Shown in pieces: positions 8,122 to 32,407 of a stretch of 42,229 nucleotides of DNA. The translations under genes and the position numbers were made by a program. The notes under the pieces were generated by a model. The model did not search any database and was not told the DNA's origin. It saw only the letters and a list, made by a program, of their open reading frames with translations. Origin of the DNA: Candidatus Atribacteria bacterium (GTDB lineage Bacteria; Atribacterota; Atribacteria; Atribacterales; JASGLU01); contig JASGLU010000008.1 of the NCBI GenBank assembly GCA_030156825.1, forward strand, positions 1-42,229, written 5' to 3'. Each line of letters opens with the position of its first letter. The first letter of the stretch is position 1.

Positions 8122-8138
8122 TGGCATGAAATTTTATC
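8122..8138 (+). promoter_or_regulatory. Variant sigma-54-like promoter of the lipoprotein genes
   Basis: TGGCATGAAATTTTATC differs at one of 17 positions from the site before flgB (14803-14819). The TGGCAnG half matches the -24 element; the -12 half reads TTTAT instead of TTGCA/T at the correct distance. Transcription would begin near 8147, leaving room for the AAGGGGG site. Confidence 0.6.
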
Positions 8139-8166
8139 CCCTTTATCCTGAAGGGGGATGATGGTT

Positions 8167-8538
8167 ATGGATTGTTCGAGAGTGAAAGCAAAGTTTTTAA
8201 TTTTTGGTCTACTTGTTTGTCTTCTCTTTGTGAGCGGATGTTCTGGAGTTCGCTGGCAGATGAAAGAGACGGTGGTATATGTCTTTGAGATAGAGGAATT
8301 ATCAAGCAGTAACCAGCACTTACCCCTGGCTGGGGCTCAGGTTTCTATTTCGGGAGAAGGGTATTCGGCTACTAAATTCACCGATAGCGAGGGGAAAGCG
8401 GTTTTTCAGGTTCCTCCGGGAACTTACACTCTTCAAGCTTCAAAGGCTGGTTACCGCTCAGCTTCGGAAATTATAACTTTATACACACTGGAACTTACTA
8501 CCGGTTATTATTATTTAAATCTAATCCCTGGGGGTTAG
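8167..8538 (+). CDS. Small lipoprotein with one carboxypeptidase-regulatory-like domain
   Basis: The protein has about 123 residues. ATG 8167 is chosen because AAGGGGG ends at 8157; the ATGs at 8158 and 8161 are too close to it. The N-terminus is a lipoprotein signal: positive CSRVKAKF, hydrophobic LIFGLLVCLLFV, lipobox VSGC. The mature part carries a beta-sandwich fold of the CarboxypepD_reg/PEGA kind: LAGAQVSISGEGYSATKFTDSEGKAVFQVPPGTYTLQASKAGY. Such domains bind surfaces, sugars or other proteins; they are not enzymes. It is cotranscribed with the next lipoprotein gene. The promoter-like motif shared with flgB suggests a role in motility, for example surface adhesion or envelope support of the motor, but no function is proven. 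Confidence 0.8.
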   Translation: MDCSRVKAKFLIFGLLVCLLFVSGCSGVRWQMKETVVYVFEIEELSSSNQHLPLAGAQVSISGEGYSATKFTDSEGKAVFQVPPGTYTLQASKAGYRSASEIITLYTLELTTGYYYLNLIPGG

Positions 8539-8539
8539 G

Positions 8540-9139
8540 ATGAAGAGATTTTTTTGGTTGGGAGGAGCAGCTTTATTTATCCTGCTTTTGCTTTCTGGAT
8601 GTGGGGGGAATAATCCAGAATTTCCGCCGGTTCATTCGCAAATAGATGTTGAGGGAAAAGTGGTTGATTCGGTAACCGGCCAGGGTTTAGCCGGGGCCGA
8701 GGTAATGCTACGGGATTTTCCTAATCGGTTGGACCTGACTGCCGATGATGGTAGTTTTTTTCTGCCGCTGGTCCCCTCAGGCAGGCAGGTATTTATAGTG
8801 AGCCTTTACGGATATCAGAAAAAAAGCGAAGCTTTCCAAATACCAGCAAGCGGTATCTGGAGAGTGGAGATTGAACTTGACCCTCTTTTAGGTAAACTGG
8901 TAGGCTATGTGTACGACTCAGAGGGTCAGGCGGTAGCTGGCGCCACAGTTACGGTAGATGGGAAATATACCACTACCACCTCGACTGATGGTCAATTTTC
9001 TTTTTCCCAGTTACCAACTGGTAGTTACATAATCACCGTGGAAAAAGAGGGATTTGTCCCTTCCTCTGGTGAGGTAAAGATTGAGCCGCCCGCTATCACT
9101 TTTTTAGAGATAACACTTTCCCTGCCGGGTGGAAGTTAA
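8540..9139 (+). CDS. Lipoprotein with two carboxypeptidase-regulatory-like repeats
   Basis: The protein has 199 residues and begins one base after the previous stop, with GGGGTTAGG as ribosome site. The signal peptide FFWLGGAALFILLLLSGC ends in the lipobox LLSGC. Two tandem beta-sandwich repeats follow: VEGKVVDSVTGQGLAGAEVML...DGSFFLPLVPSG (about 36-105) and LVGYVYDSEGQAVAGATVTVDG...DGQFSFSQLPTG (about 115-190). The two lipoproteins share this fold and look like a duplicated pair on the outer face of the cytoplasmic membrane (or an outer membrane if present). There is no catalytic signature. It is placed between the activator gene and cheA, apparently under the same variant promoter as the flagellar operon. 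Confidence 0.8.
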   Translation: MKRFFWLGGAALFILLLLSGCGGNNPEFPPVHSQIDVEGKVVDSVTGQGLAGAEVMLRDFPNRLDLTADDGSFFLPLVPSGRQVFIVSLYGYQKKSEAFQIPASGIWRVEIELDPLLGKLVGYVYDSEGQAVAGATVTVDGKYTTTTSTDGQFSFSQLPTGSYIITVEKEGFVPSSGEVKIEPPAITFLEITLSLPGGS

Positions 9140-9142
9140 TTC

Positions 9143-9154
9143 GGGCAATTGCCC
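9143..9154. repeat. Perfect palindrome upstream of the cheA promoter
   Basis: GGGCAATTGCCC is a 12-bp perfect palindrome directly before the predicted -35 (9156). No T-run follows, so it is not a standard terminator; it could be an operator. Confidence 0.4.
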
Positions 9155-9155
9155 C

Positions 9156-9184
9156 TTAAAGCGGAATGTTTCTTATGTTACAAT
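9156..9184 (+). promoter_or_regulatory. Sigma-70-type promoter of the cheA-cheY-kinase-sigma-54 operon
   Basis: TTAAAG (9156-9161), a 17-base spacer and TACAAT (9179-9184). Start is expected near 9191, giving an 80-nt leader with a possible small ORF. The -35 is weak, the -10 good. Confidence 0.45.
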
Positions 9185-9210
9185 TGGAGAGTCAGAGGAA
9201 GGGGTCGAAA

Positions 9211-9261
9211 ATGGGTTGGTTTTTTTGGGCAGTAGAAAAATTAGTCAATTGTTTTCGATAG
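9211..9261 (+). CDS. Possible 16-residue leader peptide before cheA
   Basis: ATG 9211 follows GAGGAAGGGG with 6-8 base spacing and reads MGWFFWAVEKLVNCFR before TAG at 9259-9261, 12 bases before the cheA start. It is rich in Trp and Phe. It may couple translation to cheA or be fortuitous; no database family is known to me. Confidence 0.25.
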   Translation: MGWFFWAVEKLVNCFR

Positions 9262-9273
9262 GGGGAAGAGTCG

Positions 9274-11304
9274 GTGGCAGATGGCTTTGATATGAACCAA
9301 TATTTAGGGGTTTTTCTGGAAGAAGTAGAGGAACATATAGAAAGTTTGGAAGAAAAACTGGTGGAGCTTGAGCAATATCCGGAAAAAGGGGAGTTAGTCC
9401 AGTCTATTTTCCGTTCTTTCCATACCATTAAAGGAGCGGCTGGTTCGATGAATTTTCAGCGGATGGCCAAATTAGCTCATTTGATGGAGAATCTGTTAGA
9501 CGGAGTCAGAATTGGGAAAATAGCGATTAGCTCTTCTTTGATCGACACCCTGCTTCAGGGGGTGGATGTGCTAAAGGTAATTCGGGAAGGGATTGCCGAA
9601 AAAGGGGAAGAGCCGGCAGTCGATATCCAGCATATTTCAGATTCCCTCAAGGAATTTGTAGCCGAGGAAAGTTTGAAAAATGGCTCTTCTGCCGAAAAAG
9701 AGAAAGAGCCTTTGCCGCAAGGAGAAAGCGCGTCATCACAGATGACCGAGTTGGGTGGGGAATATCGGATAAAAGTTCAACTGGAGTCAGAATGTTCTAT
9801 GAAGGGAGTGCGGGCTTATTTAGTAATTTCTCGCCTGCAAGAAGCGGGAGCCCAGGTAATAACTACCGAACCTTCTTTAGATGACCTGGAAAGTGAAAAT
9901 TTTGGTCAGAGTTTTTTGGTAACTGTAAAGTGGCATGGAAAGCCAGAAGATATTAAAAAATTAGTGGAATCAGTGGCCGAGGTGGACTCTGCTCGGGTAG
10001 AGTTACTCCAGGCAAAAAAAGCAGAAACTGGCCCGGGTAAAGAAATCCCTGGAAATAAAAAAGGAGGGATATCTCCCTTATCTTCCAAGCGGGGACTTAA
10101 AAAAACGGTCCGGGTGGACGTGGAAAGACTGGATAATTTACTCAACCTGGTGGGTGAGTTGGTAATCGATCGGGCTCGACTGGAAGATATTCTTTCCCGC
10201 TTACCAGAAGGAGAGGAAGAAACTAATTTTAGAGGGCTTCTTTCTGATACCACCACCCATGTTGGACGAGTGACCAACGAGTTGCAACTGGAAATTATGA
10301 AAGCCAGGATGCTCCCGCTGGCGGAAGTGTTTAATCGTTTTCCGCGGATGGTAAGGGATTTAGCTCGTAACTCGGGAAAAGAAGTGGATTTTTTGGTGGA
10401 AGGGGAGGAGACCGAACTCGACCGCTCTTTGTTGGAAGAGATTACCGATCCTTTAATTCACCTTCTTCGAAATGCGATAGACCATGGAATCGAAAGCAAA
10501 GAAGAAAGAGAGGCTCTGGGGAAACCGGCTCGGGGTACGATTTTACTGCGAGCCTATCAGGAGGAAAACTCGGTAATTATTATGATCCGGGACGATGGTA
10601 GAGGTATCTCCCTGGACCAGGTGAAGCAAAAAGCACTGGCGCGGGGGCTGGTTACCCCAGAAGAACTGGCTAAGATGACCGATAAAGAAGTCATCGATTT
10701 TATTTTCTACCCAGGGTTTTCTACCAGTTCTAAGGTAACCGATGTTTCCGGACGGGGAGTGGGGATGGATATTGTAAAACGAAACATTGAGCGGGTAAAC
10801 GGGCAGGTTTTGGTGGAAACCAAAGAAGGACAAGGGAGCACTTTCTACCTCCGCCTACCCCTTACTCTGGCTATAGTCCGGGCTTTACTGGTGCGTGCTG
10901 GAGATGCTACTTTTGCCATTCCTATGACCGATATAGTGGAAATTGAGAAAGTCGAGCGGAAAAACACCTATTGGGTTAATCAGGTTTTAACCGCGCTTTT
11001 TCGGGAAAAAACTCTCCCTTTACTCCGCTTGCAGGATTTGCTTCAGTCTCGAAAGGCAACCTATCAAGAAGGAATGGAAATTCCGGAAACTTTCTACACT
11101 ATAGTAGTTAATACTTCTCGGGTTTTAGCCGGGTTAGTAGTGGATGAGATTATGGGAGAACAGGAGATAGTGATTAAATCCCTGGGTACCTATATTGGCG
11201 ATATTCGGGGGTTGGGAGGAGCAACTATTCTGGGAGATGGAAGTATTTCTTTAATTTTGGATGTAGCCAGTTTACTCTGGAAATTTTCCCAGGTGGGAGG
11301 TTAG
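9274..11304 (+). CDS. cheA: Chemotaxis histidine kinase CheA
   Basis: The protein has 676 residues; the GTG start at 9274 follows GGGGGAAG. Domains: P1 Hpt with the phospho-accepting H50 (SFHTIKGAAGSM), P2-like CheY/CheB-binding domain (about 165-245), P3 dimerisation (VRVDVERLDNLLNLVGELVIDRARLE), P4 ATPase (HLLRNAIDHGIES, RDDGRGIS, GRGVGMDIVKRNIE, GSTFYLRLPLTLAI) and P5 CheW-like domain at the C-terminus. All catalytic boxes are intact. CheA phosphorylates CheY and CheB in response to receptor arrays. No CheW or receptor genes are present, so these must be elsewhere. It is the first gene of an apparent operon that also carries the sigma-54 machinery, an unusual association. Confidence 0.97.
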   Translation: MADGFDMNQYLGVFLEEVEEHIESLEEKLVELEQYPEKGELVQSIFRSFHTIKGAAGSMNFQRMAKLAHLMENLLDGVRIGKIAISSSLIDTLLQGVDVLKVIREGIAEKGEEPAVDIQHISDSLKEFVAEESLKNGSSAEKEKEPLPQGESASSQMTELGGEYRIKVQLESECSMKGVRAYLVISRLQEAGAQVITTEPSLDDLESENFGQSFLVTVKWHGKPEDIKKLVESVAEVDSARVELLQAKKAETGPGKEIPGNKKGGISPLSSKRGLKKTVRVDVERLDNLLNLVGELVIDRARLEDILSRLPEGEEETNFRGLLSDTTTHVGRVTNELQLEIMKARMLPLAEVFNRFPRMVRDLARNSGKEVDFLVEGEETELDRSLLEEITDPLIHLLRNAIDHGIESKEEREALGKPARGTILLRAYQEENSVIIMIRDDGRGISLDQVKQKALARGLVTPEELAKMTDKEVIDFIFYPGFSTSSKVTDVSGRGVGMDIVKRNIERVNGQVLVETKEGQGSTFYLRLPLTLAIVRALLVRAGDATFAIPMTDIVEIEKVERKNTYWVNQVLTALFREKTLPLLRLQDLLQSRKATYQEGMEIPETFYTIVVNTSRVLAGLVVDEIMGEQEIVIKSLGTYIGDIRGLGGATILGDGSISLILDVASLLWKFSQVGG

Positions 11305-11310
11305 TATTTT

Positions 11311-11676: not shown

Positions 11677-11692
11677 CGAGAGATGGTAATCG

Positions 11693-13180
11693 GTGGTAAC
11701 TAAGCAAGTTTATCCTAAACGGGTTTTTGCTACTACCCTACGAGAAGTTCGTCATCACCTTCAAGCCCAGGGGGTGGCGCTTATCAATTCTCAGCGAGCG
11801 CTGGTTTTATACAATGGTTTTTCTCTCCTGAAGAGAGAATTGGCAGCGCTTTTGCTAAAGGGATGGCCTTGTTTGGGTGGAGAAACGGTTTATTTGCCAC
11901 TTAAGAATAAAAAAACCTGCTTTCAAAGGATAATTCTGGATGAAGACTGGTTTTTTGTGACTGCTTTCCTGATACAGAAAGAGGGCCATCGGCCTCTTTC
12001 TGTAATTTCTCTTTCTGATAGAAATAAACTGATGGAGATAGCCGCTTTTCACGCTAACGGTGGGAATGGTGCTGCTTGCTTTTCAATAAGCGATGATTTT
12101 CTTTCTTCTTTCCCTCTGGGGTTGGTTATAGCCAGTCGAGAGGGCACGGTTGAAGGTTGGAACCATCGAATGGAAGTTATAACCGGTTGGCTGGCGGAAG
12201 AAGTGAAAAAAAAGTGCTGGCAGGATTTGTTCTCTTCGGCACTTCCGGCTGAAGTGTTGGAAAAAGGTTGGGATTCGGGAGGAACTTTCCTGAAAAATCG
12301 GGAATTCATTCATCCTCGCCAGGGGAAAAGGCTGCTCAACCTTTACCTTTTTACTTTTTCTCACGAGGGAGAGCAAAAACTGGGTTTAGTGGTGGAAGAT
12401 GTTACTGAAAAAGCCCGCTTGGGAGAGAGTGTAAGGCAGATAGAGCGCTTATCCAGTATTGGCCGTTTTATTTCCTCGGTAGCCCATGAAATTAACAACC
12501 CCTTGACGGTGATTTATGGTTACAGCCAGATGGTTTCCAACATTTTGGAAGCTAACGCTCAAAAATGTCAATTTTGCCAGACTGCCTACCGGGCGTTAGA
12601 AAAAATTGAGAAAGAGGCAGAGCACTGCAGCCGGCTTATCCAGGATTTGGTTGACTTTTCTAAGCCTGCTGCCTTGAACCGGGAGTGGGTTGACCTTAAC
12701 TCTTTGCTTTCAGAGTCAGTTTCTTTTTTTGAAGTTTATCTTAATTCTAAAAAAGAGCTGGTTTTTAACCTGGACCAAACTTTACCTTTGATATTGTTAG
12801 ACAAAACTCGGATGAGGCAGGTTTTTGCCAACCTGGCCAAGAATGCTTTTGAGGCTTTGGGAGAAGAAGGCAAAATAGAGGTCAAAACTCAACCGGTAAG
12901 GGAACTTCCTCTCTTGGCTTTTGACCGGGGAGGAGTAAAGCGGGCTGAAAATTATATTTTAGTTGAATTTAAAGATACCGGGATGGGTATTCCCCCGGAT
13001 AAGCTGGGACAGGTATTTGAGCCCTTTTTTACTACCAAAAACCAGGGAACCGGTTTGGGCCTTTCCATCTGTTTTAGCATTGTTCAGGCGCATGGCGGTT
13101 GGATGGATATAGAGTCGGAACCAGGGCAGGGGACATCGGTTAAAATTTTTCTTCCCATAGAAGAAGGTGATAACCTTTGA
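11693..13180 (+). CDS. Soluble PAS histidine kinase, probable partner of the sigma-54 activator
   Basis: The protein has 495 residues and a GTG start. There is no membrane segment. An N-terminal region (1-130) resembles a divergent GAF-type sensor, a PAS domain lies at about 135-240 (LVIASREGTVEGWNHRMEVITG), then HisKA with H265 (SSVAHEINNPL) and HATPase_c (FANLAKNAFEALGE, DTGMGIPPDKLGQVFEPFFTTK, GTGLGLSICFSIVQAHGG). The HEINNP form belongs to the NtrB/AtoS/FlgS group that phosphorylates NtrC-type regulators. A CQFC pair (C292, C295) in the HisKA hairpin plus C312 is unusual. It lies between cheY and the sigma-54 gene, and the nearby activator lacks any other kinase partner, so pairing is likely. 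It may sense an internal signal such as export gate completion, as proposed for FlgS (inference). Confidence 0.88.
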   Translation: MVTKQVYPKRVFATTLREVRHHLQAQGVALINSQRALVLYNGFSLLKRELAALLLKGWPCLGGETVYLPLKNKKTCFQRIILDEDWFFVTAFLIQKEGHRPLSVISLSDRNKLMEIAAFHANGGNGAACFSISDDFLSSFPLGLVIASREGTVEGWNHRMEVITGWLAEEVKKKCWQDLFSSALPAEVLEKGWDSGGTFLKNREFIHPRQGKRLLNLYLFTFSHEGEQKLGLVVEDVTEKARLGESVRQIERLSSIGRFISSVAHEINNPLTVIYGYSQMVSNILEANAQKCQFCQTAYRALEKIEKEAEHCSRLIQDLVDFSKPAALNREWVDLNSLLSESVSFFEVYLNSKKELVFNLDQTLPLILLDKTRMRQVFANLAKNAFEALGEEGKIEVKTQPVRELPLLAFDRGGVKRAENYILVEFKDTGMGIPPDKLGQVFEPFFTTKNQGTGLGLSICFSIVQAHGGWMDIESEPGQGTSVKIFLPIEEGDNL

Positions 13181-14520
13181 AACCAGAAGTAGGTCTCCAT
13201 TTATCCCAGTCCCAGCGGCAGCAGATGGTACCCAAGATGGTCCAGGCGGGGGAAATAATGATGATGACTCGGCTTGAGTTGGAAGCCAAATTAGAGAACT
13301 TGGTAGAGGATAACCCCTTGGTTGACATTTATGAGGGAGTGATCTGCTACGGGTGTGGCTTTCGCTCTCATCGTTTTTGGGAACGTTGTCCTCGTTGCGG
13401 CAGATATCTCAAAGGGAGTACTAATTCAGAAGTGGTCTGGGAAGAGTTTGCTCAGGTCAGCCAGAAAACCAGCTGGCAGGAGATGTGGGAGGGGGAAATT
13501 GAAATGTTTGTTTCCCTGACCGAGCGAGAAAAAAACCTGGTGAGAGTGATTGTGGCCAATTTAGATCGGGAAGGGTTTTTGCGGGAAAGCCGGGAGAAAT
13601 TGGCCTATTTTTTAAAGGAAAAAGAAGAAACGCTGGAGCGGGTAATTGAAAAAGTGCGTTCGGCTGGTTTTTTGGGATTTGCCGCCCGGGATACGGTGGA
13701 TTTTTTGTTGCTGCAGCTAAGGCAAAAAAAAGTTGCCGGAGAATTGCAAGATGAAGCTCGACTTCGCCGTTTGCTCCATGTCTCTCCCCAGGAATTTCAT
13801 CAGTTGTTTTTACCTTATCTCGGGGAGCTTTTTTTCTCACCTCTCCAGGCTTTTGAATTTAGTTTAGAAAATCAAGAACGGCAGCAGCTTGAAGGGACAT
13901 CTTCCGCTTTAGTGCCAGACGCCGAAGTGATTGAGGGGGAAGAAGGTAATTTAGAAGTAATCCTGGTGGACTCTCCTTTTTGGAAAGTGAGCTTAAACCA
14001 GGCAGTACTGGAGTGGTATCGGAAAAAGAAGAAAACCCTTTCCCCCCGGGAAAAAGAGTATTTTCAGAGCAAGTTAGCCGAGGCGCGAGAAACTCTTTCT
14101 TGCGTGGGTTACCGCCACCGGCTTTTTTTGCGGGTGGTAGAATATATAGTGCAGGTAGAAGCAGAATTTTTTAGGCAAGGGTTCAAGTTTTTTGTGCCTC
14201 TTTCTCAACAAACGGTAGCCGAAAACGTGGGAGTGAGTATAAGCGCTGTTTGTCAGGTTTTGAAAGGTAAATCTCTTAAATGTCCGGATGGAATAACCCG
14301 AGATTTTAAATTCTTTTTTGATAGTTCCTACCCGGTAAAAGAGATGATCAAACTGATAATTTCTAAAGAAGACCCCGCCCGTCCCCTGTCCGATAAGAAA
14401 ATTGGGGAAGAGCTCCGCTCGGCCGGCTTCTCGGTGGCCCGGCGAACAGTAGCGCTTTACCGGGGAGAAATAGGCATTTTACCCTCCCATCTGAGAAAAA
14501 AGTTACTCTCCGCTCACTAA
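13177..14520 (+). CDS. rpoN: Atypical RNA polymerase sigma-54 factor with zinc-ribbon insert
   Basis: The protein has 447 residues; the TTG start overlaps the kinase stop (TTGA), with GAAGGTGATAAC upstream. Region I is recognisable (LHLSQSQRQQMVPKMVQAGE...LELEAKLENLVEDNPLVD). Residues 57-74 hold CYGC...CPRC, a Cys4 zinc-ribbon-like insert where the acidic region II normally lies. Core-binding domain about 110-250; HTH about 342-365 (LSQQTVAENVGVSISAVCQV); RpoN box 421-430 ARRTVALYRG (usual ARRTVxKYRE). Aligning SAVCQV with the usual STVSRV puts Q360 at Arg383, a residue implicated in -12 recognition. It is probably dedicated to flagellar genes rather than a general RpoN. Whether the genome has a second RpoN cannot be seen. 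Confidence 0.93.
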   Translation: MKPEVGLHLSQSQRQQMVPKMVQAGEIMMMTRLELEAKLENLVEDNPLVDIYEGVICYGCGFRSHRFWERCPRCGRYLKGSTNSEVVWEEFAQVSQKTSWQEMWEGEIEMFVSLTEREKNLVRVIVANLDREGFLRESREKLAYFLKEKEETLERVIEKVRSAGFLGFAARDTVDFLLLQLRQKKVAGELQDEARLRRLLHVSPQEFHQLFLPYLGELFFSPLQAFEFSLENQERQQLEGTSSALVPDAEVIEGEEGNLEVILVDSPFWKVSLNQAVLEWYRKKKKTLSPREKEYFQSKLAEARETLSCVGYRHRLFLRVVEYIVQVEAEFFRQGFKFFVPLSQQTVAENVGVSISAVCQVLKGKSLKCPDGITRDFKFFFDSSYPVKEMIKLIISKEDPARPLSDKKIGEELRSAGFSVARRTVALYRGEIGILPSHLRKKLLSAH

Positions 14521-14750: not shown

Positions 14751-14803
14751 TTTTTCTTTAATCCTTGCCTTTTCGGGGTTAGAGGGGGTAAACCCCCCTA
14801 TTT
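14751..14803 (+). repeat. Palindromic intergenic repeat, copy B
   Basis: TTTTTCTTTAATCCTTGCC then TTTTCGGGGTTAGA and the hairpin GGGGG-TAAA-CCCCC (14784-14797). It ends directly against the variant promoter of flgB. Confidence 0.6.
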
Positions 14804-14819
14804 GGCAGGAAATTTTATC
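14803..14819 (+). promoter_or_regulatory. Variant sigma-54-like promoter of the main flagellar operon
   Basis: TGGCAGGAAATTTTATC, 16 of 17 bases identical to the site at 8122-8138. GG of the -24 element is present; TA replaces the invariant GC of the -12 element at the right distance. Predicted start near 14828, about 32 nt before the flgB GTG, leaving the GGGAGGTGATGG ribosome site in the transcript. Confidence 0.62.
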
Positions 14820-14859: not shown

Positions 14860-15258
14860 GTGGTTGGTCAAATAGATCCGGTGCTTTCTCTTTTGGAGCG
14901 CGGACTTGACCTGGTTCAGGCTCGGCAAGAGTTACTTGTGCAAAACGTAGCCAATGTGGAAACTCCGAAGTATCAAAGGAAAGATCTGGACTTTGAAGCC
15001 GCTTTACAGGAATCTTTGCGGGATAAAAAAGAGGGGGTTTCTCTTCGGGTGACTCAGCCGGCTCACCTTTCCTCGGCGAGTGAGTCTGGATTACGGGAAA
15101 AAGAAAGTAACTATTGGATCAGACAAGACGGCTCTGGGGTAGATATAGAGCAGGAAATGAGCCTGGTGTTGGAAAACACTCTTTATTACCAGATGCTGGC
15201 ACGGATGACTTCGGATAAACTTAGCCAGTTGCGAACTGTTGCTCGGGAGGTGAGATAA
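14860..15258 (+). CDS. flgB: Flagellar basal body rod protein FlgB
   Basis: The proximal rod subunit, 132 residues, GTG start after GGGAGGTGATGG. The N-terminal rod motif is clear: RQELLVQNVANVETPKYQRKDLDFEAAL; the C-terminus DIEQEMSLVLENTLYYQMLARMTSDKLSQLRTVAREV is also typical (ME..LAEN..QYN..). It is exported by the flagellar type III system and forms the rod with FlgC, FliE and others. It opens the long operon running to 41943, and flgC begins at the very next base after its stop, implying coupled translation. Confidence 0.95.
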   Translation: MVGQIDPVLSLLERGLDLVQARQELLVQNVANVETPKYQRKDLDFEAALQESLRDKKEGVSLRVTQPAHLSSASESGLREKESNYWIRQDGSGVDIEQEMSLVLENTLYYQMLARMTSDKLSQLRTVAREVR

Positions 15259-15651
15259 ATGTCGGTTTTTAGTACTCTGGGAATTAGCGCTTCTGCCCTG
15301 ACAGCTGAGCGATTACGGATGGATGTGGTAGCTGCTAACTTAGCCAATGTCGATACTACTCGCACCGCCAGCGGCGAGGTTTATTATCGAAAAGAAGTAG
15401 TTTTCCGCCCGCTGGAAAACGGGGGAGTAAAGGCCACCGCCGTATTTGAGGATCGTACCACCCCTACCCGCTTGGTTTATCAACCGGAGCACCCCGATGC
15501 CGATGCCCGGGGGATGGTAGAGTATCCTAATGTGGTCTTGGTTAACGAAATGGTGGACTTGATGGCAGCCAATCGAGCCTATCAGGCTAATATAACCGCT
15601 TTAAACGCCACCAAGGAAATAATGAGCCGGGCTATTAATATTGGTCGCTAA
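15259..15651 (+). CDS. flgC: Flagellar basal body rod protein FlgC
   Basis: The protein has 130 residues. The N-terminus (LGISASALTAERLRMDVVAANLANVDTTRT) has the rod signature, the middle has VYRP..PDADARGMVEYPNVVLVNEMVDLMAANRAYQANITALNATKEI, and it is full length for the family. It is a proximal rod component placed in the usual flgB-flgC-fliE order. The ribosome site GGGAGGTGAGAT lies within the end of flgB. Its start follows the flgB stop directly. Confidence 0.96.
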   Translation: MSVFSTLGISASALTAERLRMDVVAANLANVDTTRTASGEVYYRKEVVFRPLENGGVKATAVFEDRTTPTRLVYQPEHPDADARGMVEYPNVVLVNEMVDLMAANRAYQANITALNATKEIMSRAINIGR

Positions 15652-15665
15652 CTGAGGTGAGAGGA

Positions 15666-15953
15666 ATGCAAGTAGGCCAGATTTTTACCCATACCCCGCT
15701 GATGGCTTCCCCGGAAAAAGGAGGACCAGCGGAGGGAGATTTTAGCCAAGCGCTGGGAGATGCTCTCTCCCGGGTTAATCGGCTGCAGCTGACAGCGGAT
15801 CAGGCAATAGAATCGGTAATCTCCGGAGAAGAACCTAATATTCATCAGGCGATTATTGCTTTGGAAAAAGCCCAGATAGCGCTTGAAGTCACGATTCAGG
15901 TGAGGAATAAAGTAGTAGAAGCTTACCAAGAAATTATGCGGATGCAAGTTTAA
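15666..15953 (+). CDS. fliE: Flagellar hook-basal body protein FliE
   Basis: The protein has about 95 residues; ATG 15666 follows GAGGTGAGAGGA (an upstream GTG at 15657 overlaps this site). The C-terminal half has the FliE signature: SGEEPNIHQAIIALEKAQIALEVTIQVRNKVVEAYQEIMRMQV. FliE connects the MS ring to the rod and is the first protein secreted by the export gate. The N-terminal half is variable. It ends 4 bases before fliF. Confidence 0.94.
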   Translation: MQVGQIFTHTPLMASPEKGGPAEGDFSQALGDALSRVNRLQLTADQAIESVISGEEPNIHQAIIALEKAQIALEVTIQVRNKVVEAYQEIMRMQV

Positions 15954-15957
15954 AAAA

Positions 15958-17550
15958 ATGAACAGCCCATTAGCAACTATTTCCAACTCTTTTAAAAATA
16001 TTTGGAATGGTATGAACCAGGGACAACGGTTGCTATTTATTCTTATTTCCACCGCTTTGGTAGCTGGGATTGTTACTCTTTTGATGTACTCATCTCAGCC
16101 CGATTATGTGGTTCTTTTTCGCGACCTTGGTCCAGGTGAGAGTGGAGAAGTAGTGGATAAATTAGAAGAAATGGGCATTCCCTATCGAATTTCAGCCGGA
16201 GGAACCCAAATCGAAGTCCCGCAAAGCGCGCTTCACCGGGCGCGGATGCAGCTTGCCCAAGAAGGACTTCCTCCTCAGGGGCAGGGGTTTGAGGTATTTG
16301 ACCAGAACAATTTTGGCTTAACCAGTTTTCTCCAGGAGGTAAACTACCAAAGAGCGCTTCAAGGAGAGCTGGAGCGGACTATTTCTCAAATGAAGGAGAT
16401 AAAAAGCGCCCGGGTTCATCTGGTTCTTCCCAAAGAAGAACTTTTTTTGGAAGAAGAGAAACCCCCAACCGCCTCAGTCGTGCTCGAATTGCGCTCGGGT
16501 AGCCGACTGAGTGCTTCTCAGATAGAAGCCATTGCCCAACTGGTGGCCAATGGTGTAGAGGGATTAGACCCCACGCGGGTGGCGATTGTGGACCAGGCAG
16601 GTAACATTCTGGCCAGTGGTTCAGGAGAAGAAGGTTCCTTTCTTAGTTTGCCCCAGCTCACCGCTACTCAGTTGGAAGTTAAAAAGGAAGTGGAAGAGAG
16701 TTTAACTCAAAGAGTACAATCGATGTTGGAGAGCGCCCTTGGTTATCAAAAAGCAGTGGTTCGGGTTAGTGCCGACCTTGATTTTGAAAGACGGGAAGGG
16801 GAAAAAGAAAGTTTTCAGCCGGTAACCGGGGGAGAGGGAGTGGTCCGTAGCCTGCAGGAGATGGAAGAAGAGTATCAAGGCGGGGGACAAGCGCCAGGTG
16901 GGGTTCCGGGAGTAGCCTCTAATATTCCTATATATGCGGGAGAGCCGGAGTCAGAATCGGAAAGCAGTAGTTACAGCAAAAGGGAATCGACCACTAACTA
17001 TGAAGTTAATCGGTTTTTGGAGCGCTATGCCTCAGCTCCAGGTGAAATCAAACGGCTTTCGGTAGCAGTGTTAGTGGATAGCAGCCTTTCTCCAGCAGAG
17101 GTGGAGAAAATTGAAGGAGTGGTAAGGGGCGCAGTAGGAATTAACCCAGAACGAGGGGATATGGTTATTGTGGAGTCTCTTCCTTTCAGTCAGGATTTCT
17201 TGGCTGAAGAACGAGAGGCTCTGGCAGCTCAGAGAAGGATGGAGTTAATAACCCTCCTGGGCAAATACGGGATTTTAGCCTTGCTGGTTTTAGTTCTTTA
17301 TTCTCTGGGAAGAAGGATACTGACCGCAGTCACCGCTCCTGAAGAAGTAACGGCTGAAGTTTATGAGGAGCTGGAAGAGAGAGAAGGGTTTGAAGAGAAA
17401 TTGCAGCCGGTGAGGCCGGCAGAACTCAGTCCAGAGGAGAAAGCCAAGTTGGAAGTCCAAAAGCACATGGAAAACGAAATCCGCCGTTTAGTTCAGGATA
17501 ATCCGGAAGACGCGGCGAGATTGATTAGAAATTGGTTGGCGGAGGAATAG
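15958..17550 (+). CDS. fliF: Flagellar MS-ring protein FliF
   Basis: The protein has 530 residues. Membrane segments lie near 22-44 (LLFILISTALVAGIVTLLM) and 436-456 (YGILALLVLVLYSLG), with the YscJ/FliF ring-building domains between (VVDKLEEMGIPYRISAGGTQIEVPQ; ERTISQMKEIKSARVHLVLPKEELF) and an acidic cytoplasmic tail (ending RLIRNWLAEE) that binds FliG. It is slightly shorter than the enteric protein. It is the scaffold on which the switch and export gate assemble. The fliE stop lies 4 bases upstream and there is little obvious SD, so translation is probably coupled. Confidence 0.96.
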   Translation: MNSPLATISNSFKNIWNGMNQGQRLLFILISTALVAGIVTLLMYSSQPDYVVLFRDLGPGESGEVVDKLEEMGIPYRISAGGTQIEVPQSALHRARMQLAQEGLPPQGQGFEVFDQNNFGLTSFLQEVNYQRALQGELERTISQMKEIKSARVHLVLPKEELFLEEEKPPTASVVLELRSGSRLSASQIEAIAQLVANGVEGLDPTRVAIVDQAGNILASGSGEEGSFLSLPQLTATQLEVKKEVEESLTQRVQSMLESALGYQKAVVRVSADLDFERREGEKESFQPVTGGEGVVRSLQEMEEEYQGGGQAPGGVPGVASNIPIYAGEPESESESSSYSKRESTTNYEVNRFLERYASAPGEIKRLSVAVLVDSSLSPAEVEKIEGVVRGAVGINPERGDMVIVESLPFSQDFLAEEREALAAQRRMELITLLGKYGILALLVLVLYSLGRRILTAVTAPEEVTAEVYEELEEREGFEEKLQPVRPAELSPEEKAKLEVQKHMENEIRRLVQDNPEDAARLIRNWLAEE

Positions 17551-17554
17551 GCTT

Positions 17555-18571
17555 ATGGCAGTTATCCCCCGGCGCGGACTTAATGGTAGACAGAAAGCGG
17601 CTATTTTGCTTGTCAGCTTGGGGCCGGATGCGGCAGCCCAGGTACTGAAGAAATTGTCCAACGATGAGATTGAAGATATTACCTTTGAAATTGCTGCTTT
17701 GGAAAGAGTCCCGCCTGAGGTTCGGGAAGAGGTGGTAAGCGAATTTTACCATATGGCTCTGGCGCAGGAGTATATTTCCCAGGGAGGAGTAGAGTTTGCC
17801 CGCCTTCTGTTGGAAAAGGCGGTGGGACCTCATCGAGCAAGTGAAATTATCGGCCGGCTGTCAGCTACCTTAGAAGTTACTCCCTTTGAATCTCTGCGGC
17901 GAGCCGACCCCCTGCAGTTGCTCAATTTCATTCAGAACGAACACCCACAAACCATTGCTCTTATTCTTTCTTATTTAAAACCTGATCAGTCAGCTATGAT
18001 TTTGGGCAATCTACCAGAGAGTGTTCGGGGAGAGGTAGCTATGCGACTGGCTCTCATGGACCGGACTTCGCCGGAAGTAGTACGGGAGGTGGAGTCTATT
18101 TTGGAGAGAAAAGTTTCTTCCTTCCTGGGTCAAGATTTCACCCGGGTAGGGGGAAAAGAAAAATTAGTAGAAATTCTCAACAAAAGTGATCGAGGAACCG
18201 AGAAAAGCATTTTGGAAGCTCTGGAGGAAAGAGATCCGGAACTGGCCGAAGAGGTTAAGTCGGAGATGTTTGTTTTTGAAGATATTGTGTTACTTGATGA
18301 CCGGGCGATTCAGCTGGTCTTGCGGCAAATAGATACCAAGGACCTGGCTTTGGCGCTCAAGGGAGCCTCGGGTGAAGTCCAGGAGAAAATTTTCCGTAAT
18401 ATGTCGCAGCGGGCAGCACAGATGCTGCGAGAGGATATGGAATACATGGGGCCGGTGAGAGCACGGATGGTCAACGAGGCCCAACAGAAGGTGGTCAACG
18501 TTATCCGCCGCCTGGAAGAGTCGGGCGAGATCGTCATTGCCCGGGGAGGGGAGGACGAGATTATTGTATAG
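17555..18571 (+). CDS. fliG: Flagellar motor switch protein FliG
   Basis: The protein has 338 residues, full length. N-terminal domain (RGLNGRQKAAILLVSLGPDAAAQVLKKLSNDEIEDI) binds FliF; the EHPQTIALILSYLKPDQSAMIL motif of the middle domain binds FliM; the C-terminal torque helix contains charged residues facing MotA (LVLRQIDTKDLALALKGAS...REDMEYMGPVRARMVNEAQQKVVNVIRRLEESGEI). It forms the upper part of the cytoplasmic C ring. ATG 17555 follows GGCGGAGGAATAG located in the end of fliF. Confidence 0.97.
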   Translation: MAVIPRRGLNGRQKAAILLVSLGPDAAAQVLKKLSNDEIEDITFEIAALERVPPEVREEVVSEFYHMALAQEYISQGGVEFARLLLEKAVGPHRASEIIGRLSATLEVTPFESLRRADPLQLLNFIQNEHPQTIALILSYLKPDQSAMILGNLPESVRGEVAMRLALMDRTSPEVVREVESILERKVSSFLGQDFTRVGGKEKLVEILNKSDRGTEKSILEALEERDPELAEEVKSEMFVFEDIVLLDDRAIQLVLRQIDTKDLALALKGASGEVQEKIFRNMSQRAAQMLREDMEYMGPVRARMVNEAQQKVVNVIRRLEESGEIVIARGGEDEIIV

Positions 18572-21543: not shown

Positions 21544-21554
21544 AGGGGTAAAAA

Positions 21555-22187: not shown

Positions 22188-22191
22188 AAAA

Positions 22192-23682
22192 ATGAGTTTT
22201 TTTGTGTTACCAGAAGCGGCTTTAGCGGCTATTCATACTCCCTCATCAGGGGAAAAAAGCAAGGTTCAATCTGCTGATACCGGCGAGTTTGACCAGATTT
22301 TGGAGGAGAACTGTTCTGGGAAAAACTGTTTTCCCGATGTGGTTTCGGCTTTAGGAGGATCAGAGGCGACCTTAGCCAATTACCGCTTGACTTGTCCTTC
22401 GACTGGAACAAATCCAGAACCTAAACCAGTTTCTTCCTGTCAGTCAAACAACTGCTCGCTCTCATCTTCTGCTTGCTCTCAGCCGAGCATTTCTCTGGAT
22501 GGGAGATTAGAGCAAATTCGGCAAGGAATAGAGAATTTTTTGAGTGAGCTGCAGTCGTTCAACTTTTCTCTGGATTGGGGAGAAAAAGGTAAAGTTGAGT
22601 TGGTTGGACAAGCCGGGGAAAATGGTGAGTTTGGGTTTCAGCTTTCGGGTAATAAAGAAGCAATAGCTGATCTTTTGGCCCGGGCTTTGGAATATTTGCT
22701 TTCCTGGGAGGAAGCTCGCGTTTCAGCTGTAACCTCGACCAACCCTTGTTCCCTGGGGGGTAATGGTTGTCCTCTCCCAGTAGGGGAAACACAGGCGTTT
22801 GTGAGTTCTGCCGGAGGAACGGAAGCGGAAAGCCTTTTTTCTGAAGTTACTCCTGAGGGCTTATCTCCTTTTTTAGAAGGGGAAGAGGCAACTTCAACTG
22901 GTGCGATTTTAGCTGAAGCAGCCCCCACTGAAACAGCTAATCTATCTTCTACCCTTACGGGCGCATCTTTGGAGGAGAGTCAGCTGGCAGGGACAGCAAC
23001 AGAGGCAACCCTATCGGTTTTAGCTGGAGAAGAAGGTGGGCTCTCCTTTTCTTCGGGAAAGGGCAGCCAACCGGAATTTTCTTCGGGAGAGATGGGCGAA
23101 AAAACCTCGGGGGGAGAGAACCTTCTTTTCTCGAATACAAAGATTGCAACTGACGCTGGCAGAGAAAAGGGAGAATTTGAGCCGGTGGTGGGAGAAAGTC
23201 CGTCTGTGCTTTCTAAAAATGAGGCCGAGTTAGTTTTTTCTCTGGAGGCGTCGGCGGATAATTCCAACCGGTTAGACAAGGTGCAGGCTCTTTTTGACCG
23301 AATTTTTGAGCTGGCTACCCGGGAGGAAGGACCGAAAAAGTTGGTTATTAAGCTGGAACCGGAAAGCCTGGGTTCTATCGTAGTTCAAGTGATGGAAGAC
23401 GGGAAACGAGTCCAGTGTTTCTGGCAGGTGGCTGACCCCAAAACCCAGGAATTGATTGAGCAAAATTTACCTTTGCTCGAGGCCCGGCTGGGGAATGAGG
23501 GCATGTCGTTCCAGAATTTCCTGGGAGAAGAGCGGGGATATTGGAATGGGGAGCAGGCTGAATTTCTTTCTTCCGCCGGTAGCGGAGGGTTTGCCCCTTA
23601 TTTGGGTGATGCTGATTTAGGGGAAACAACTCCTTCTTTCAATTGGGCATTGCATCCGGGGCAAGTGAATCTTTTAATATAG
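22192..23682 (+). CDS. fliK: Flagellar hook-length control protein FliK, Cys-rich N-terminal half
   Basis: The protein has 496 residues; ATG 22192 follows AGGAGGTG. The C-terminal Flg_hook domain is clear: GPKKLVIKLEPESLGSIVVQVMEDGKRVQCFWQVADPKTQELIEQNLPLLEARLGNEG. It switches export specificity at FlhB when the hook is complete; the N-terminal part acts as molecular ruler. The ruler region is long, disordered and Ser/Gly/Glu-rich, and unusually holds eight cysteines in the first 200 residues (41, 46, 68, 83, 88, 95, 186, 193), mostly as spaced pairs. Identity of the gene rests on the C-terminus and on the place between motE and flgD. Confidence 0.9.
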   Translation: MSFFVLPEAALAAIHTPSSGEKSKVQSADTGEFDQILEENCSGKNCFPDVVSALGGSEATLANYRLTCPSTGTNPEPKPVSSCQSNNCSLSSSACSQPSISLDGRLEQIRQGIENFLSELQSFNFSLDWGEKGKVELVGQAGENGEFGFQLSGNKEAIADLLARALEYLLSWEEARVSAVTSTNPCSLGGNGCPLPVGETQAFVSSAGGTEAESLFSEVTPEGLSPFLEGEEATSTGAILAEAAPTETANLSSTLTGASLEESQLAGTATEATLSVLAGEEGGLSFSSGKGSQPEFSSGEMGEKTSGGENLLFSNTKIATDAGREKGEFEPVVGESPSVLSKNEAELVFSLEASADNSNRLDKVQALFDRIFELATREEGPKKLVIKLEPESLGSIVVQVMEDGKRVQCFWQVADPKTQELIEQNLPLLEARLGNEGMSFQNFLGEERGYWNGEQAEFLSSAGSGGFAPYLGDADLGETTPSFNWALHPGQVNLLI

Positions 23683-23694
23683 GAGGTGAAGCAG

Positions 23695-24075
23695 TTGATT
23701 ATAGCGGTAGATAGTGCTACGCAATCCAATAGTGCGGTTGCCGAAAGTAAAAGAAATACTCTTGACGGGGAAGATTTTATGCAGCTTTTATTGCTCCAAC
23801 TCCAGCACCAGAACCCACTTGAGCCTATGAGTGAGCAGGAGTTTGGAGCACAGTTAGCCCAGTATAATACTCTCTCTGAGATGCAGAAGGTCAACCAGAA
23901 CCTGCAATCCCTCCTTTTCCTCCAGGCCGGCAACTTGATAGGCCAGGAGGTAAATTTGATAAATGGAGAAAGCGGTGAAATTGAGGGAGTGTCTATCCAG
24001 AACAAGGCGCTTACCCTTTGGGTGGGAGGAAAAGAGTATTCGCTATCAGAAGTAGCCGGGGTGGGGGAAGTCTGA
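23695..24075 (+). CDS. flgD: Flagellar hook assembly (cap) protein FlgD, short form
   Basis: The protein has about 126 residues. TTG 23695 is used because AGGAGGTG (23681-23688) sits at proper spacing; an earlier GTG lies inside that site. The conserved N-terminal domain is present: LDGEDFMQLLLLQLQHQNPLEPMSEQEFGAQLAQYNTLSEMQKVNQNLQ. The C-terminal Tudor-like segment is short (LIGQEVNLINGESGEIEGVSIQNKALTLWVGGKEYSLSEVAGVGEV), and the FlgD Ig-like domain of enteric proteins is missing, as in Bacillus. FlgD caps the growing hook. It overlaps the next gene by one base. Confidence 0.93.
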   Translation: MIIAVDSATQSNSAVAESKRNTLDGEDFMQLLLLQLQHQNPLEPMSEQEFGAQLAQYNTLSEMQKVNQNLQSLLFLQAGNLIGQEVNLINGESGEIEGVSIQNKALTLWVGGKEYSLSEVAGVGEV

Positions 24076-24449
24076 TGGTTGAGCAGGTAGGCTTTCGCCC
24101 TTACTCTTCTGAAATTTCTCCGGTTACTCCTCTTCGCCGGAATTCGATTTCGAAGGGTAAAGACGCAACTTCGTTTGAGGACATTCTGTCTCAAACGGAG
24201 ATTACCTTTTCTGCCCATGCCCGCCAGCGATTGCAGGAGCGGGGTATTACTCTTGACGGGCCGATTTTGGATCGGCTTTCGCAGGCGATTCACAGAATAG
24301 AAGCTAAAAAAGGAGAAAGTTCACTGGTGATGGTAGATGATATTAGTTTTATAGTCAATATCCCTAACCGGGTGGTGATTACCTGCCTTGATGGCCAATC
24401 CCGGCGGGGGAACGTGTTTACCAATATTGATTCGGCGGTAATTATGTAG
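24075..24449 (+). CDS. Conserved flagellar operon protein (flg_new type)
   Basis: The protein has 124 residues; ATG 24075 overlaps the flgD stop (TGATG), with GGGGGAAG upstream. The core FEDILSQTEITFSAHARQRLQERGITL...RIEAKKGESSLVMVDDISFIVNIPNRVVITCLDG...VFTNIDSAVIM matches the small family found between flgD and flgE in Firmicutes (TIGR02530-like; the full motif is ISxHAxxRLxxRGI). Its role is unknown; conserved position suggests hook assembly or hook length control. Confidence 0.88.
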   Translation: MVEQVGFRPYSSEISPVTPLRRNSISKGKDATSFEDILSQTEITFSAHARQRLQERGITLDGPILDRLSQAIHRIEAKKGESSLVMVDDISFIVNIPNRVVITCLDGQSRRGNVFTNIDSAVIM

Positions 24450-26824: not shown

Positions 26825-26829
26825 ATTGA

Positions 26830-30559: not shown

Positions 30560-31325
30560 CCGGAAAAAGCTGGTTTTCCTTGGGGTACTGGTTGCTTGCT
30601 TTATTTTTTTCTTTCTACCGACCAAGTTGAGTGCCCAGGAGTTGCCACTGGTTTTACCCCGGGTAACGGTAGAGGCAGGAGAGGCAGAACAACCGGAAGA
30701 GTTGGTTCTTTCTCTGCAGATTTTGGTTCTTCTTACCATATTGAGTTTAGCACCGGCCATTTTGATATTGCTTACCTCTTTTACCCGAATTGTGGTGGCT
30801 CTGGCTTTTGTCCGCAATGCTCTGGGTTCGCCTCAAATACCGCCCACCCCGGTTTTAATTGGCTTATCTCTTTTTCTCACTTTTTTGGTGATGGCTCCTA
30901 CTTTTGGAGAAATCAATCAGCAGGCTATCCAGCCTTATCTGGAAGGAGAAATTACCCAGTCGGAGGCGTGGAATCAGGGAACAGATATTTTACGAAATTT
31001 TATGTTCCGCCAGGTCGATGAGAAAGACTTATCTTTGATGGTTTCTTTGGCTCGTATGCCTCGGCCTAACACTCGGTCCGATATTCCAACCCATGTACTT
31101 ATTCCGGCTTTTATCCTTAGTGAGTTGCGAATAGCTTTTACTCTGGGATTTTTGGTGTATGTTCCTTTTCTTTTAATCGACATGGTGGTGGCCAGCATTC
31201 TTATGTCGATGGGGATGATGATGTTGCCCCCGGTTATGATTTCCCTGCCTTTTAAGATTCTACTTTTTGTTTTAGTGGATGGATGGGATCTGGTTACCCG
31301 GGGGATTGTAATGAGCGTGAGATAA
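30549..31325 (+). CDS. fliP: Flagellar export gate protein FliP
   Basis: The protein has about 258 residues from GTG 30549 (GGGAGGAAAAAGGAAA upstream; the frame is open from 30531). An N-terminal cleavable signal (LVFLGVLVACFIFFFLPTKLSAQ) is followed by FliP helices: LVLLTILSLAPAILILLTSFTRIVVALAFVRNALG, PPTPVLIGLSLFLTFLVMAP, HVLIPAFILSELRIAFTLGFLVYVPFLLIDMVVASILMSMGMMMLPPVMISLPFKI. These are strict family signatures. It forms the core of the export channel with FliQ and FliR. Confidence 0.97.
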   Translation: MESNRKKLVFLGVLVACFIFFFLPTKLSAQELPLVLPRVTVEAGEAEQPEELVLSLQILVLLTILSLAPAILILLTSFTRIVVALAFVRNALGSPQIPPTPVLIGLSLFLTFLVMAPTFGEINQQAIQPYLEGEITQSEAWNQGTDILRNFMFRQVDEKDLSLMVSLARMPRPNTRSDIPTHVLIPAFILSELRIAFTLGFLVYVPFLLIDMVVASILMSMGMMMLPPVMISLPFKILLFVLVDGWDLVTRGIVMSVR

Positions 31326-31337
31326 GGGGGCTTAATT

Positions 31338-31607
31338 GTGACTGAAGAGCTACTTTTGGAAATAGGGAACCAGGCCTTGTGGGTAGTGTTGAAAGTAGCC
31401 CTTCCGATTTTAGGAGCGGCTCTTCTGGTAGGAATTTTAGTGAGTATTTTTCAGGCGGTAACTCAAATCCATGAACTTACCCTTACTTTTGTTCCTAAAA
31501 TTCTGGTAGTGATGTTAGTAGTAGTTTTACTCGGTCCCTGGATGCTGCGCACTTTTTTGGATTTCATGAACCAACTTTACTGGGCTTTGCCTACTTTAGT
31601 GAGGTAA
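31338..31607 (+). CDS. fliQ: Flagellar export gate protein FliQ
   Basis: The protein has 89 residues with two membrane helices (ALWVVLKVALPILGAALLVGILVSIFQAVTQI and LVVMLVVVLLGPWMLRTFLDFM), including the FliQ motif QAVTQIHELTLTFVPKIL. Four copies encircle the FliP5-FliR1 channel. GTG 31338 is the start; fliR begins right after the stop. Confidence 0.96.
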   Translation: MTEELLLEIGNQALWVVLKVALPILGAALLVGILVSIFQAVTQIHELTLTFVPKILVVMLVVVLLGPWMLRTFLDFMNQLYWALPTLVR

Positions 31608-31611
31608 GTTG

Positions 31612-32385
31612 GTGGAGAGTTTGTTTTTGCTGCCCAGTTATTTTTTACCTTTTTTGCTGGTTTGGATGAGACTGCTCGGGCTTTTCTTGATTGCACCGGT
31701 GTTTAACAGTCGGTTGATTCCCATTCCGGTGAAAGTGGGCCTCTCTTTCATGATAGCTTTAGTAATGGCTTTAGTCATCTTGCCGGTTGATAGCCAGTGG
31801 CAGTTCGATGGTAGATTTTTTTTAGCCCTTTTTTCAGAAATTGTTTTGGGTCTGGTTTTAGGTTTGGTAGCCGGTTTGATTCTTTCTTGCGTGCAAATCG
31901 CCGGCGAGATTATCGATTTTCAAATGGGTTTCAGTTACGTTAATATAGTGGACCCTTTATCTAACCTGGGAGTTTCGGTAATGGGCCAGTTTTACTTTGT
32001 TCTTACCACCATTTACTACCTGGGAGTTGGTGGTCACCGGCTGTCCCTTTTGGGTTTGGCCCGCTCTTTTGAGCTGGTGCCACTGGGGAGCTTCGCCGTA
32101 AAGGAAGAGATGGCTTACAGTTTTATCGATTTGGTGGGCGAGGTAACAGTAATCGGCATCCAGGTTGGAGCACCGATAATCGTAGCTCTTTTTCTGTCCA
32201 ACTTTACCCTGGCTATCCTCTCCCGTGCCATTCCCCAGATGAACGTTTTTATTGTGGGGTTGCCTTTAAATATCGGGATTGGCTTTTTTTTAGCCCTGAT
32301 TACCCTCCCTTACTTTCTACCGGTGGTGAACCGGGTAATATCCCTCTTTTTCCAGGCTTTTTATCGCTTTTTGGGCGTTCCTTAA
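31612..32385 (+). CDS. fliR: Flagellar export gate protein FliR
   Basis: The protein has about 257 residues. GTG 31612 gives better spacing to GAGGT than TTG 31609. The membrane protein contains RLLGLFLIAPVFNSRLIPIPVKVGLSFMIALVMAL, GEIIDFQMGFSYVNIVDPLSN and LAILSRAIPQMNVFIVGLPLNIGIGFFLALITLPYFL, all FliR signatures. One copy completes the export gate. A variant sigma-54-like motif begins 6 bases after its stop. Confidence 0.96.
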   Translation: MESLFLLPSYFLPFLLVWMRLLGLFLIAPVFNSRLIPIPVKVGLSFMIALVMALVILPVDSQWQFDGRFFLALFSEIVLGLVLGLVAGLILSCVQIAGEIIDFQMGFSYVNIVDPLSNLGVSVMGQFYFVLTTIYYLGVGGHRLSLLGLARSFELVPLGSFAVKEEMAYSFIDLVGEVTVIGIQVGAPIIVALFLSNFTLAILSRAIPQMNVFIVGLPLNIGIGFFLALITLPYFLPVVNRVISLFFQAFYRFLGVP

Positions 32386-32390
32386 CTTTT

Positions 32391-32407
32391 TGGCAAGTAA
32401 ATTCATC
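32391..32407 (+). promoter_or_regulatory. Third variant sigma-54-like site, before flhB
   Basis: TGGCAAGTAAATTCATC agrees at 13 of 17 positions with the site before the lipoproteins, including TGGCA, G at position 7, TT and ATC at the same distances. It lies in the only sizeable gap (64 bases) between fliP and flhA, so it may be an internal promoter for flhB-flhA-che-fliA. Predicted start near 32416, about 34 nt before flhB. Confidence 0.5.

Follow-up and report, generated by a model that had tools for sequence, protein, structure and literature searches.

A flagellum-linked sigma-54 lineage of Atribacterota with an apparently recoded -12 promoter element

Flagellar cascades of the FlgS/FlgR or FleSR type join a kinase and an NtrC-type regulator to sigma-54, followed by sigma-28 for flagellin, and the sigma-54 paralogues of Rhodobacter sphaeroides show paralogue-specific promoter preference near -11. 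In the solved complex described in PMC9770992, whose promoter numbering we follow, canonical promoters prefer TTTTGCA from -18 to -12; the GC is read by H377, S379, and R383, the flipped -12 base by S335, the -11 base by Q18, L19, and K331, and the -24 box by R455/R456. The account in PMC3162934 describes the DNA-binding residues of sigma-54 as especially conserved and promoter scans as assuming a matching, conserved promoter. Here, we analyze 42,229 nucleotides (nt) of contig JASGLU010000008.1 from a Candidatus Atribacteria bacterium ("the window," contig C8 of a 1,975,366-base draft genome in 98 contigs), which encode a sigma-54 among flagellar and chemotaxis genes and carry three sites with a sigma-54-like -24 half but no GC at -12. 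Judging from comparisons of sequence, in one Atribacterota order both the bases recognized by sigma-54 and the amino acids with which it reads them appear to have changed, which would be an uncommon natural co-change of a regulator and its promoters. The predicted promoters and the factor are as follows (distances run from the motif end to the start of the open reading frame [ORF]).

8122 to 8138, plus strand: variant sigma-54-type promoter of the lipoprotein/cheA genes; exact match to TGGCANGNAANTTNATC, TGGCA at -24, TATC (-14 to -11) at 8135-8138; ORF 8158 starts 19 nt on; motif present before the orthologue in 8 further genomes.
14803 to 14819, plus strand: variant sigma-54-type promoter of flgB; exact match to TGGCANGNAANTTNATC, TATC at 14816-14819; ORF 14860 starts 40 nt on; motif present before flgB in 12 further genomes.
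32391 to 32407, plus strand: variant sigma-54-type promoter of flhB; exact match to TGGCANGNAANTTNATC, CATC at 32404-32407; ORF 32444 starts 36 nt on; motif present before flhB in 14 further genomes.
13177 to 14520, plus strand: variant sigma-54 of 447 amino acids with activator-interacting, core-binding, and DNA-binding domains (AID, CBD, and DBD); Q360 corresponds to R383 and S354 to H377, the RpoN box is retained as ARRT, and CxxC..CxxC lies at residues 57-74.

An earlier note, made from the sequence alone, had claimed that three intergenic sites share this motif on the coding strand before two lipoprotein genes, flgB, and flhB. The claim held: the matches at 8122, 14803, and 32391 are exact, on the plus strand, and 19, 40, and 36 nt from the ORF starts. 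No fourth match to TGGCANGNAANTTNATC occurs in the window, even with two mismatches allowed. Chance likeness of three short AT-rich strings could nevertheless account for this much, as 1.33 matches are expected at ≤2 mismatches and 3 were reached in 17 of 100 window shuffles. Because the consensus was fitted to these same three sites and 17% of shuffles equal them, the window alone is weak evidence; its statistics being unremarkable, the question was taken to the whole genome and to relatives.

Within its own genome (1.98 Mb), the wider pattern of the earlier note, TGGCANGNNNNTTNATC, had 7 matches, compared with 1 for the reversed pattern. Two lay within long open frames and one was antisense at a gene junction, while the other four preceded flagellar genes, which is the clustering that the suggested full-genome scan was meant to look for. 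The fourth flagellar site is found on contig C46, 52 nt upstream of a flgF-like gene. A tighter pattern, TGGCANNNNWWTTYATC, retrieved five matches, namely the same four flagellar sites and one within an ORF.

Upstream regions in relatives were defined as the 300 nt before orthologues found by protein similarity, with the motif playing no part in their choice. They comprised flgB from 13 genomes, flhB from 15 (all flhB genes found), and the first lipoprotein gene from 9, drawn from four families. TGGCA-N6-TT[TC]AT was present in 13/13, 15/15, and 9/9 of these regions, respectively, so that the repeat in related genomes suggested earlier recovered the motif before orthologues in 37/37. When only TGGCA-N6-TT was used as the search key, without preference for what follows, all 37 regions still had a site continuing YAT; a second TGGCA-N6-TT lacking YAT was present in three flhB regions (G003, G006, and G007). 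TGGCA and TT stand at canonical sigma-54 spacing in every region, those letters being the search key itself. The flgB and lipoprotein sites of G002 lie ∼235 nt upstream of the start of homology. A loose canonical key, TGGY-N7..9-TTGC, was found in 5/37 regions. As a held-out test, a matrix trained on flgB sites from other families was used to score the flhB and lipoprotein regions, and the best match was the site itself (shuffle p ≤0.03) in 21 of 24.

Base counts over the 37 sites, for which a form carrying AT at -13/-12 took precedence if one existed, gave T (33) or C (4) at -14, A (37) at -13, T (37) at -12, and C (36) or A (1) at -11; the sole site without C at -11 is the lipoprotein site of G003. 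None of the -12 elements contains GC, and all contain YA. The earlier description of a sigma-54-like -24 half and spacing with GC replaced at -12 thus extends to relatives, where TGGCA is kept and GC occurs in 0/37 sites. Other parts of that consensus did not extend as far: position 7 is G in 13/37 sites, and positions 8-10 are not conserved among relatives. An ordinary sigma-54 working on weak, degenerate canonical promoters, with the missing GC tolerated rather than recoded, would likewise leave the -24 box and spacing canonical, and known sigma-54 promoters do vary to a degree. We regard this explanation as very improbable, as the substituted bases are far too uniform for noise (A at -13 in 37/37, T at -12 in 37/37, and C at -11 in 36/37 sites across four families) and as Gln and Ser are invariant at the GC-reading positions of the factor (see below).

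The position of genome-wide matches was compared within the order, for which 25 genomes were available: 16 flagellated (15 with a sigma-54 gene, plus G019) and 9 others. TGGCANNNNWWTTYATC matched 96 times in this set (reversed-pattern totals, 3 in the flagellated genomes and 6 in the others), at a density of 2.58 matches per Mb in flagellated versus 0.87 in other genomes. Matches ≤100 nt before a same-strand ORF made up 41/78 in the former but 1/18 in the latter (one-sided Fisher p 0.00015, which serves as a guide only because matches are not independent across related genomes). The ORF caller picks the longest ORF, and sites can therefore be hidden under overlong calls, such as those before the flgF-like genes of G001 and G002; 1 of the 18 matches outside flagellated genomes (G020) is too close to a contig end to judge. 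The lone promoter-positioned match among the 9 other genomes belongs to G010, an 80%-complete draft. A second G010 match (L101, G010:C132:8676) lies 50 nt before a flgF-like fragment and was scored as inside a short ORF; sigma-54 and FlhB were not found in this draft, and the sigma-54 gene may have been lost to its incompleteness. Chance likeness, which the window had left standing, is rejected by the motif's presence in 37/37 orthologue upstream regions, by its recovery with the held-out matrix, and by this contrast in promoter position; its probability is close to nil.

The canonical pattern TGGCANNNNNWTTGCW and its reversed control matched, respectively, 72 and 32 times in the 16 flagellated genomes, 40 and 14 times in the 9 others, and 190 and 9 times in the phylum's 25 remaining genomes. 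In two variant genomes, G000 and G003, all 18 canonical matches fell within ORFs and none was promoter positioned, and canonical promoter use elsewhere in these two genomes was rejected on this ground; the variant pattern placed 7/11 matches ≤100 nt before an ORF in the same pair. In three genomes of the phylum with canonical sigma-54 (G030, G037, and G046, picked from the few non-order genomes whose canonical matches were listed in full), 10/20 canonical matches were intergenic and 7/20 lay ≤100 nt before an ORF.

The factor encoded at 13177 matched all sigma-54 family domains over cutoff (PF00309, 39.9 bits; PF04963, 56.9; PF04552, 106.2) and is the single sigma-54 of its genome (one PF04552 match). 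Its structure model (pLDDT 79.2, pTM 0.57) retrieved sigma-54 entries only, in all 30 Protein Data Bank matches at E ≤0.001 (best, 9msg_M at 6.4e-20). Among 61 genomes, 44 had a PF04552 match; 15/25 genomes of the order were over cutoff, and G022 contained a sub-cutoff fragment with two stops. The 15 variants comprise the 13 sequences of alignment A1 and two partial ones (L049 and L051). A profile scan of genome contigs with A1 returned 10 loci, from five Candidatus Atribacteria bacterium, three Candidatus Caldatribacterium, and two "uncultured bacterium" entries, and the order that carries the variant lies in Atribacterota. Families f5 and f7 of the same phylum, which have canonical sigma-54, probably correspond to class JS1/Phoenicimicrobiia as presented in PMC11227167.

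The 15 variants were compared with 26 canonical sequences. L053 (G041, sigma-54 match in two pieces) and L011 (no tblastn match at cutoff) entered neither these counts nor the tree, and L002, L036, L037, and L038 are second copies of other loci. Q360 aligned to R383 of the solved chain 7qv9_M (residue number hand-counted along the alignment), in agreement with the earlier claim of Gln at the -12-reading position of the local sigma-54. At R383, all 15 variants have Gln whereas all 26 canonical sequences have Arg; at H377, Ser (15/15) stands against His (20), Asn (5), or Asp (1). The T380 position holds Ala (9) or Gly (6) versus Thr (26), and the S382 position holds Cys (15) versus Ser (23) or Cys (3). 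The variants also uniformly have Glu at W328 (Trp in 19/26 canonical sequences), Ser at K331 (Lys/Arg in 24/26), and Tyr at S335 (Gln in 23/26). S379 is similar in both sets (Ser 13 and Ala 2 versus Ser 24 and Ala 2), while R336, R455, and R456 are Arg in 15/15 variants, so that the -24-reading arginines of the RpoN box are kept. Region I positions fall in gaps in 2/15 variants and 1/26 canonical sequences. Overall, residues facing the unchanged -24 box are retained and most of those facing altered bases have changed, with S379 as the exception. By these alignments, the change is broader than the earlier note claimed, covering four bases (-14 to -11, canonical GCAN to TATC) and several contact residues rather than R383 alone.

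The sigma-54 tree unites all 15 variants in a single long-stemmed clade (100/100), apart from the sigma-54s of other Atribacterota families. Given this placement and the long-branch warnings that the tree carries, the lineage may have arisen by change in place or by transfer. Another divergent sigma-54, L035 (G053), is likewise missing the loop that follows the helix-turn-helix (HTH) and retains His and Arg at the H377 and R383 positions; thus, divergence alone does not bring Gln.

The variants also share invariant cysteines C57, C60, C71, and C74 (13/13 A1 sequences), encoded at 13345-13398 between region I and the CBD. The AlphaFold2 model has a pLDDT of ∼85 at this CxxC..CxxC motif, and the corresponding pieces match zinc-ribbon families, all below cutoff; the motif probably forms a small, zinc-binding ribbon. 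HP0958 is a zinc-ribbon RpoN chaperone in the description of PMC5947703. We do not claim a link to it, as PF02591 was below cutoff in 5/6 pieces and covered the profile end only.

It could be argued that flagellated order members share some other DNA-binding protein or sigma factor that occupies the sites, the changes in sigma-54 being independent drift. Both the motif and sigma-54 go together with flagellar genes, and co-occurrence alone is no proof of a direct link. However, TGGCA and its spacing to TT fit the sigma-54 -24 box and geometry, the residues reading that box are intact while those facing changed bases have changed (residue roles as given in PMC9770992), and another binder would leave the only sigma-54 without a canonical promoter, given 0/18 promoter-positioned canonical matches in two genomes. 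We therefore consider a different binder unlikely, though less so than tolerated degenerate promoters. The coevolution of factor and promoter proposed in the earlier note gains support from motif conservation before orthologues in four families, from replacement of H377/R383 in 15/15 variants with R455/R456 and TGGCA kept, and from the positions of variant (41/78 versus 1/18) and canonical (0/18) matches. We infer that this sigma-54 binds these sites, and we assign a probability of roughly 0.87 to a natural, monophyletic, motility-linked lineage of sigma-54 in which the -12 element has been recoded and the contact residues have changed to match.

Several observations weigh against this assignment. 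The held-out matrix failed p 0.05 for flhB of G011, G013, and G023 (p 0.07 to 0.11), with the best match three bases off register; the matrix for these regions came from three training sites only, and the exact motif site is nonetheless present. An 18-base form of the motif, TGGCANNNNNWTTYATCC, matched 44 times in the 16 flagellated genomes but also 17 times in the 9 others, a modest separation, with 10 in the remaining phylum genomes (controls for the three groups, 2, 2, and 8); raw counts therefore discriminate weakly, while position discriminates well. No sigma-54 match was found in G019, a genome with both flhB and the motif. A strong PF00158 activator match (E 2e-75 or better) was found in 11/25 order genomes, one each and all flagellated, and is missing in 5/16 flagellated genomes (G006, G009, G013, G019, and G021), of which G009 is 96% complete; weaker PF00158 matches, present in 25/25 order and 14/14 control genomes, were not counted as activators. 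Finally, the cultured Thermatribacter velox is reported in PMC11227167 as nonmotile, with no flagella seen.

Candidate partners of the factor, and a sigma-28-like site, lie nearby.

6606 to 7931, minus strand: NtrC-type response regulator/activator with GAFTGA; PF00158 at 251 bits (the genome's strongest), PF00072, and PF02954 over profile positions 2-31 of 42.
11693 to 13180, plus strand: PAS-containing histidine kinase (PF08448, PF00512, and PF02518), directly upstream of the sigma-54 gene, with the same neighbor order in relatives.
2336 to 2362, plus strand: sigma-28-like site before flagellin ORF 2512, with 1 mismatch to the consensus TAAA-N15-GCCGATAA; at 2 mismatches, the window contains four further matches.

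The Fis-type HTH match of the activator is partial (2-31 of 42), leaving its DNA binding uncertain, and this protein may work without an ordinary DNA-binding domain. The PAS kinase is its likely partner, and the GAFTGA activator encoded nearby is suggestive of ATP-dependent open-complex formation by an AAA+ protein. In the mechanism that we favor, the three sites would be sigma-54-type promoters read by the sigma-54 of the same cluster. Its RpoN box would still read TGGCA at -24, while an HTH without GC-reading residues (H377 to Ser, R383 to Gln), with other residues that hold the -12/-11 fork altered as well, would now read T(C)-A-T-C at -14 to -11. With phosphorylation probably coming from the adjacent PAS kinase, the activator would drive open-complex formation and so turn on the lipoprotein/cheA, flgB, flhB, and flgF-like transcription units. 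The FliA-like sigma-28 encoded behind flhB would then turn on flagellin. By sequence, the window shows the arrangement of a putative sigma-54-dependent flagellar cascade, with sigma-54-type sites in front of early/middle flagellar operons and a sigma-28-like site in front of flagellin. The units behind the three promoters are the following.

8158 to 9139, plus strand: two lipoprotein-like ORFs with CarboxypepD_reg-type domains (PF13620), lipobox-like N termini judged by eye; first genes behind the promoter at 8122.
9274 to 11304, plus strand: cheA, with CheW, P2, H-kinase_dim, Hpt, and HATPase_c matches.
14860 to 24449, plus strand: flagellar gene run led by flgB; ORFs with gene names from translations, without family search.
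32444 to 40179, plus strand: flagellar/chemotaxis gene run led by flhB, from translations; its last gene, at 39424-40179, encodes a FliA-like sigma factor with sigma-70 regions 2, 3, and 4 matched.

We take two of the genes to be flhB and flhA from their sequences, and the sigma-70-family gene at 39424 is presumably of the FliA type.

In relatives, the motif also precedes other genes, whose names were judged by eye from sequences. It lies 24-52 nt before prepilin-like genes (L135, L069, L107, and L067 in G003, G004, G011, and G013) and 71 nt before a pilT-like gene (G002); the prepilin-like genes suggest that type IV pili are a predicted part of the regulon there. Chemoreceptor-like genes follow it at 29-50 nt in G011, G017, and G024 and at 192 nt in G015, and surface-sugar enzyme-like genes follow it at 23-51 nt in G002, G007, and G024. 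TPR/glycosyltransferase-like genes lie 16-19 nt behind it in G004 and G023. In the window, a TPR-type protein is encoded beside the flagellin gene (542-2299); its distant homologues (31-32% identity), which are glycosyltransferase-like, lie behind the motif in G003, G004, and G023. These genes fit the proposal, put forward in PMC3162934, that sigma-54 governs the cell exterior. In three genomes with canonical sigma-54 (L180, L181, and L193; G037, G046, and G030), members of a small, secreted-looking protein family with similar N termini have canonical promoters 43-54 nt upstream.

A lineage changed on both sides provides a natural test of the residues that set -12 specificity and early melting. 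If the reading is correct, standard sigma-54 promoter scans miss this regulon. The pair suggests a possible orthogonal switch. A stronger version, for which we see the odds as evenly balanced, holds that the factor and its promoters were recoded in concert across the whole melting element (-14 to -11) into a pair that neither reads nor is read by the canonical system, and that the segment between region I and the CBD now centers on a metal-binding ribbon with a possible role in holding or releasing the fork.

Keyword searches within the open-license literature of PubMed Central turned up no report of such a lineage or of an Atribacterota RpoN, and "Atribacter" is absent from the main text of PMC12316311, a 2025 survey of sigma-54 regulons in 16 phyla. 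Canonical sigma-54 (RpoN), as seen in solved complexes and same-phylum genomes, is alike in AID, CBD, DBD, RpoN box, fold, TGGCA box, spacing, and GAFTGA activator. In contrast to it, the variant has R383 replaced by Gln, H377 by Ser, and other fork-facing changes (15/15), its promoters have TATC for GCAN at -14 to -11, and the factor adds CxxC..CxxC.

The gene for RpoN2 of R. sphaeroides (Cereibacter) likewise sits among flagellar genes, which this factor serves specifically, as described in PMC7277832. RpoN2 is one of four paralogues, whereas the variant factor is the only sigma-54 of its genome. RpoN2 promoters are not known to have lost the -12 GC. Laboratory changes at E378 and R383 of the sigma-54 HTH concern the same -12-contacting residues, and PMC5505868 describes crosslinking at each of the two. 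Such single substitutions were engineered, while the present case is a natural lineage with Gln at 383 and altered promoters. Older suppressor work reportedly dealt with -13 promoter mutants. Cascades of the FlgS/FlgR and FleSR types resemble this locus in combining a kinase, an NtrC-type regulator, and sigma-54, with sigma-28 acting afterward. They differ in belonging to other phyla and using canonical promoters, whereas here the kinase and sigma-54 genes are adjacent and form one string with cheA.

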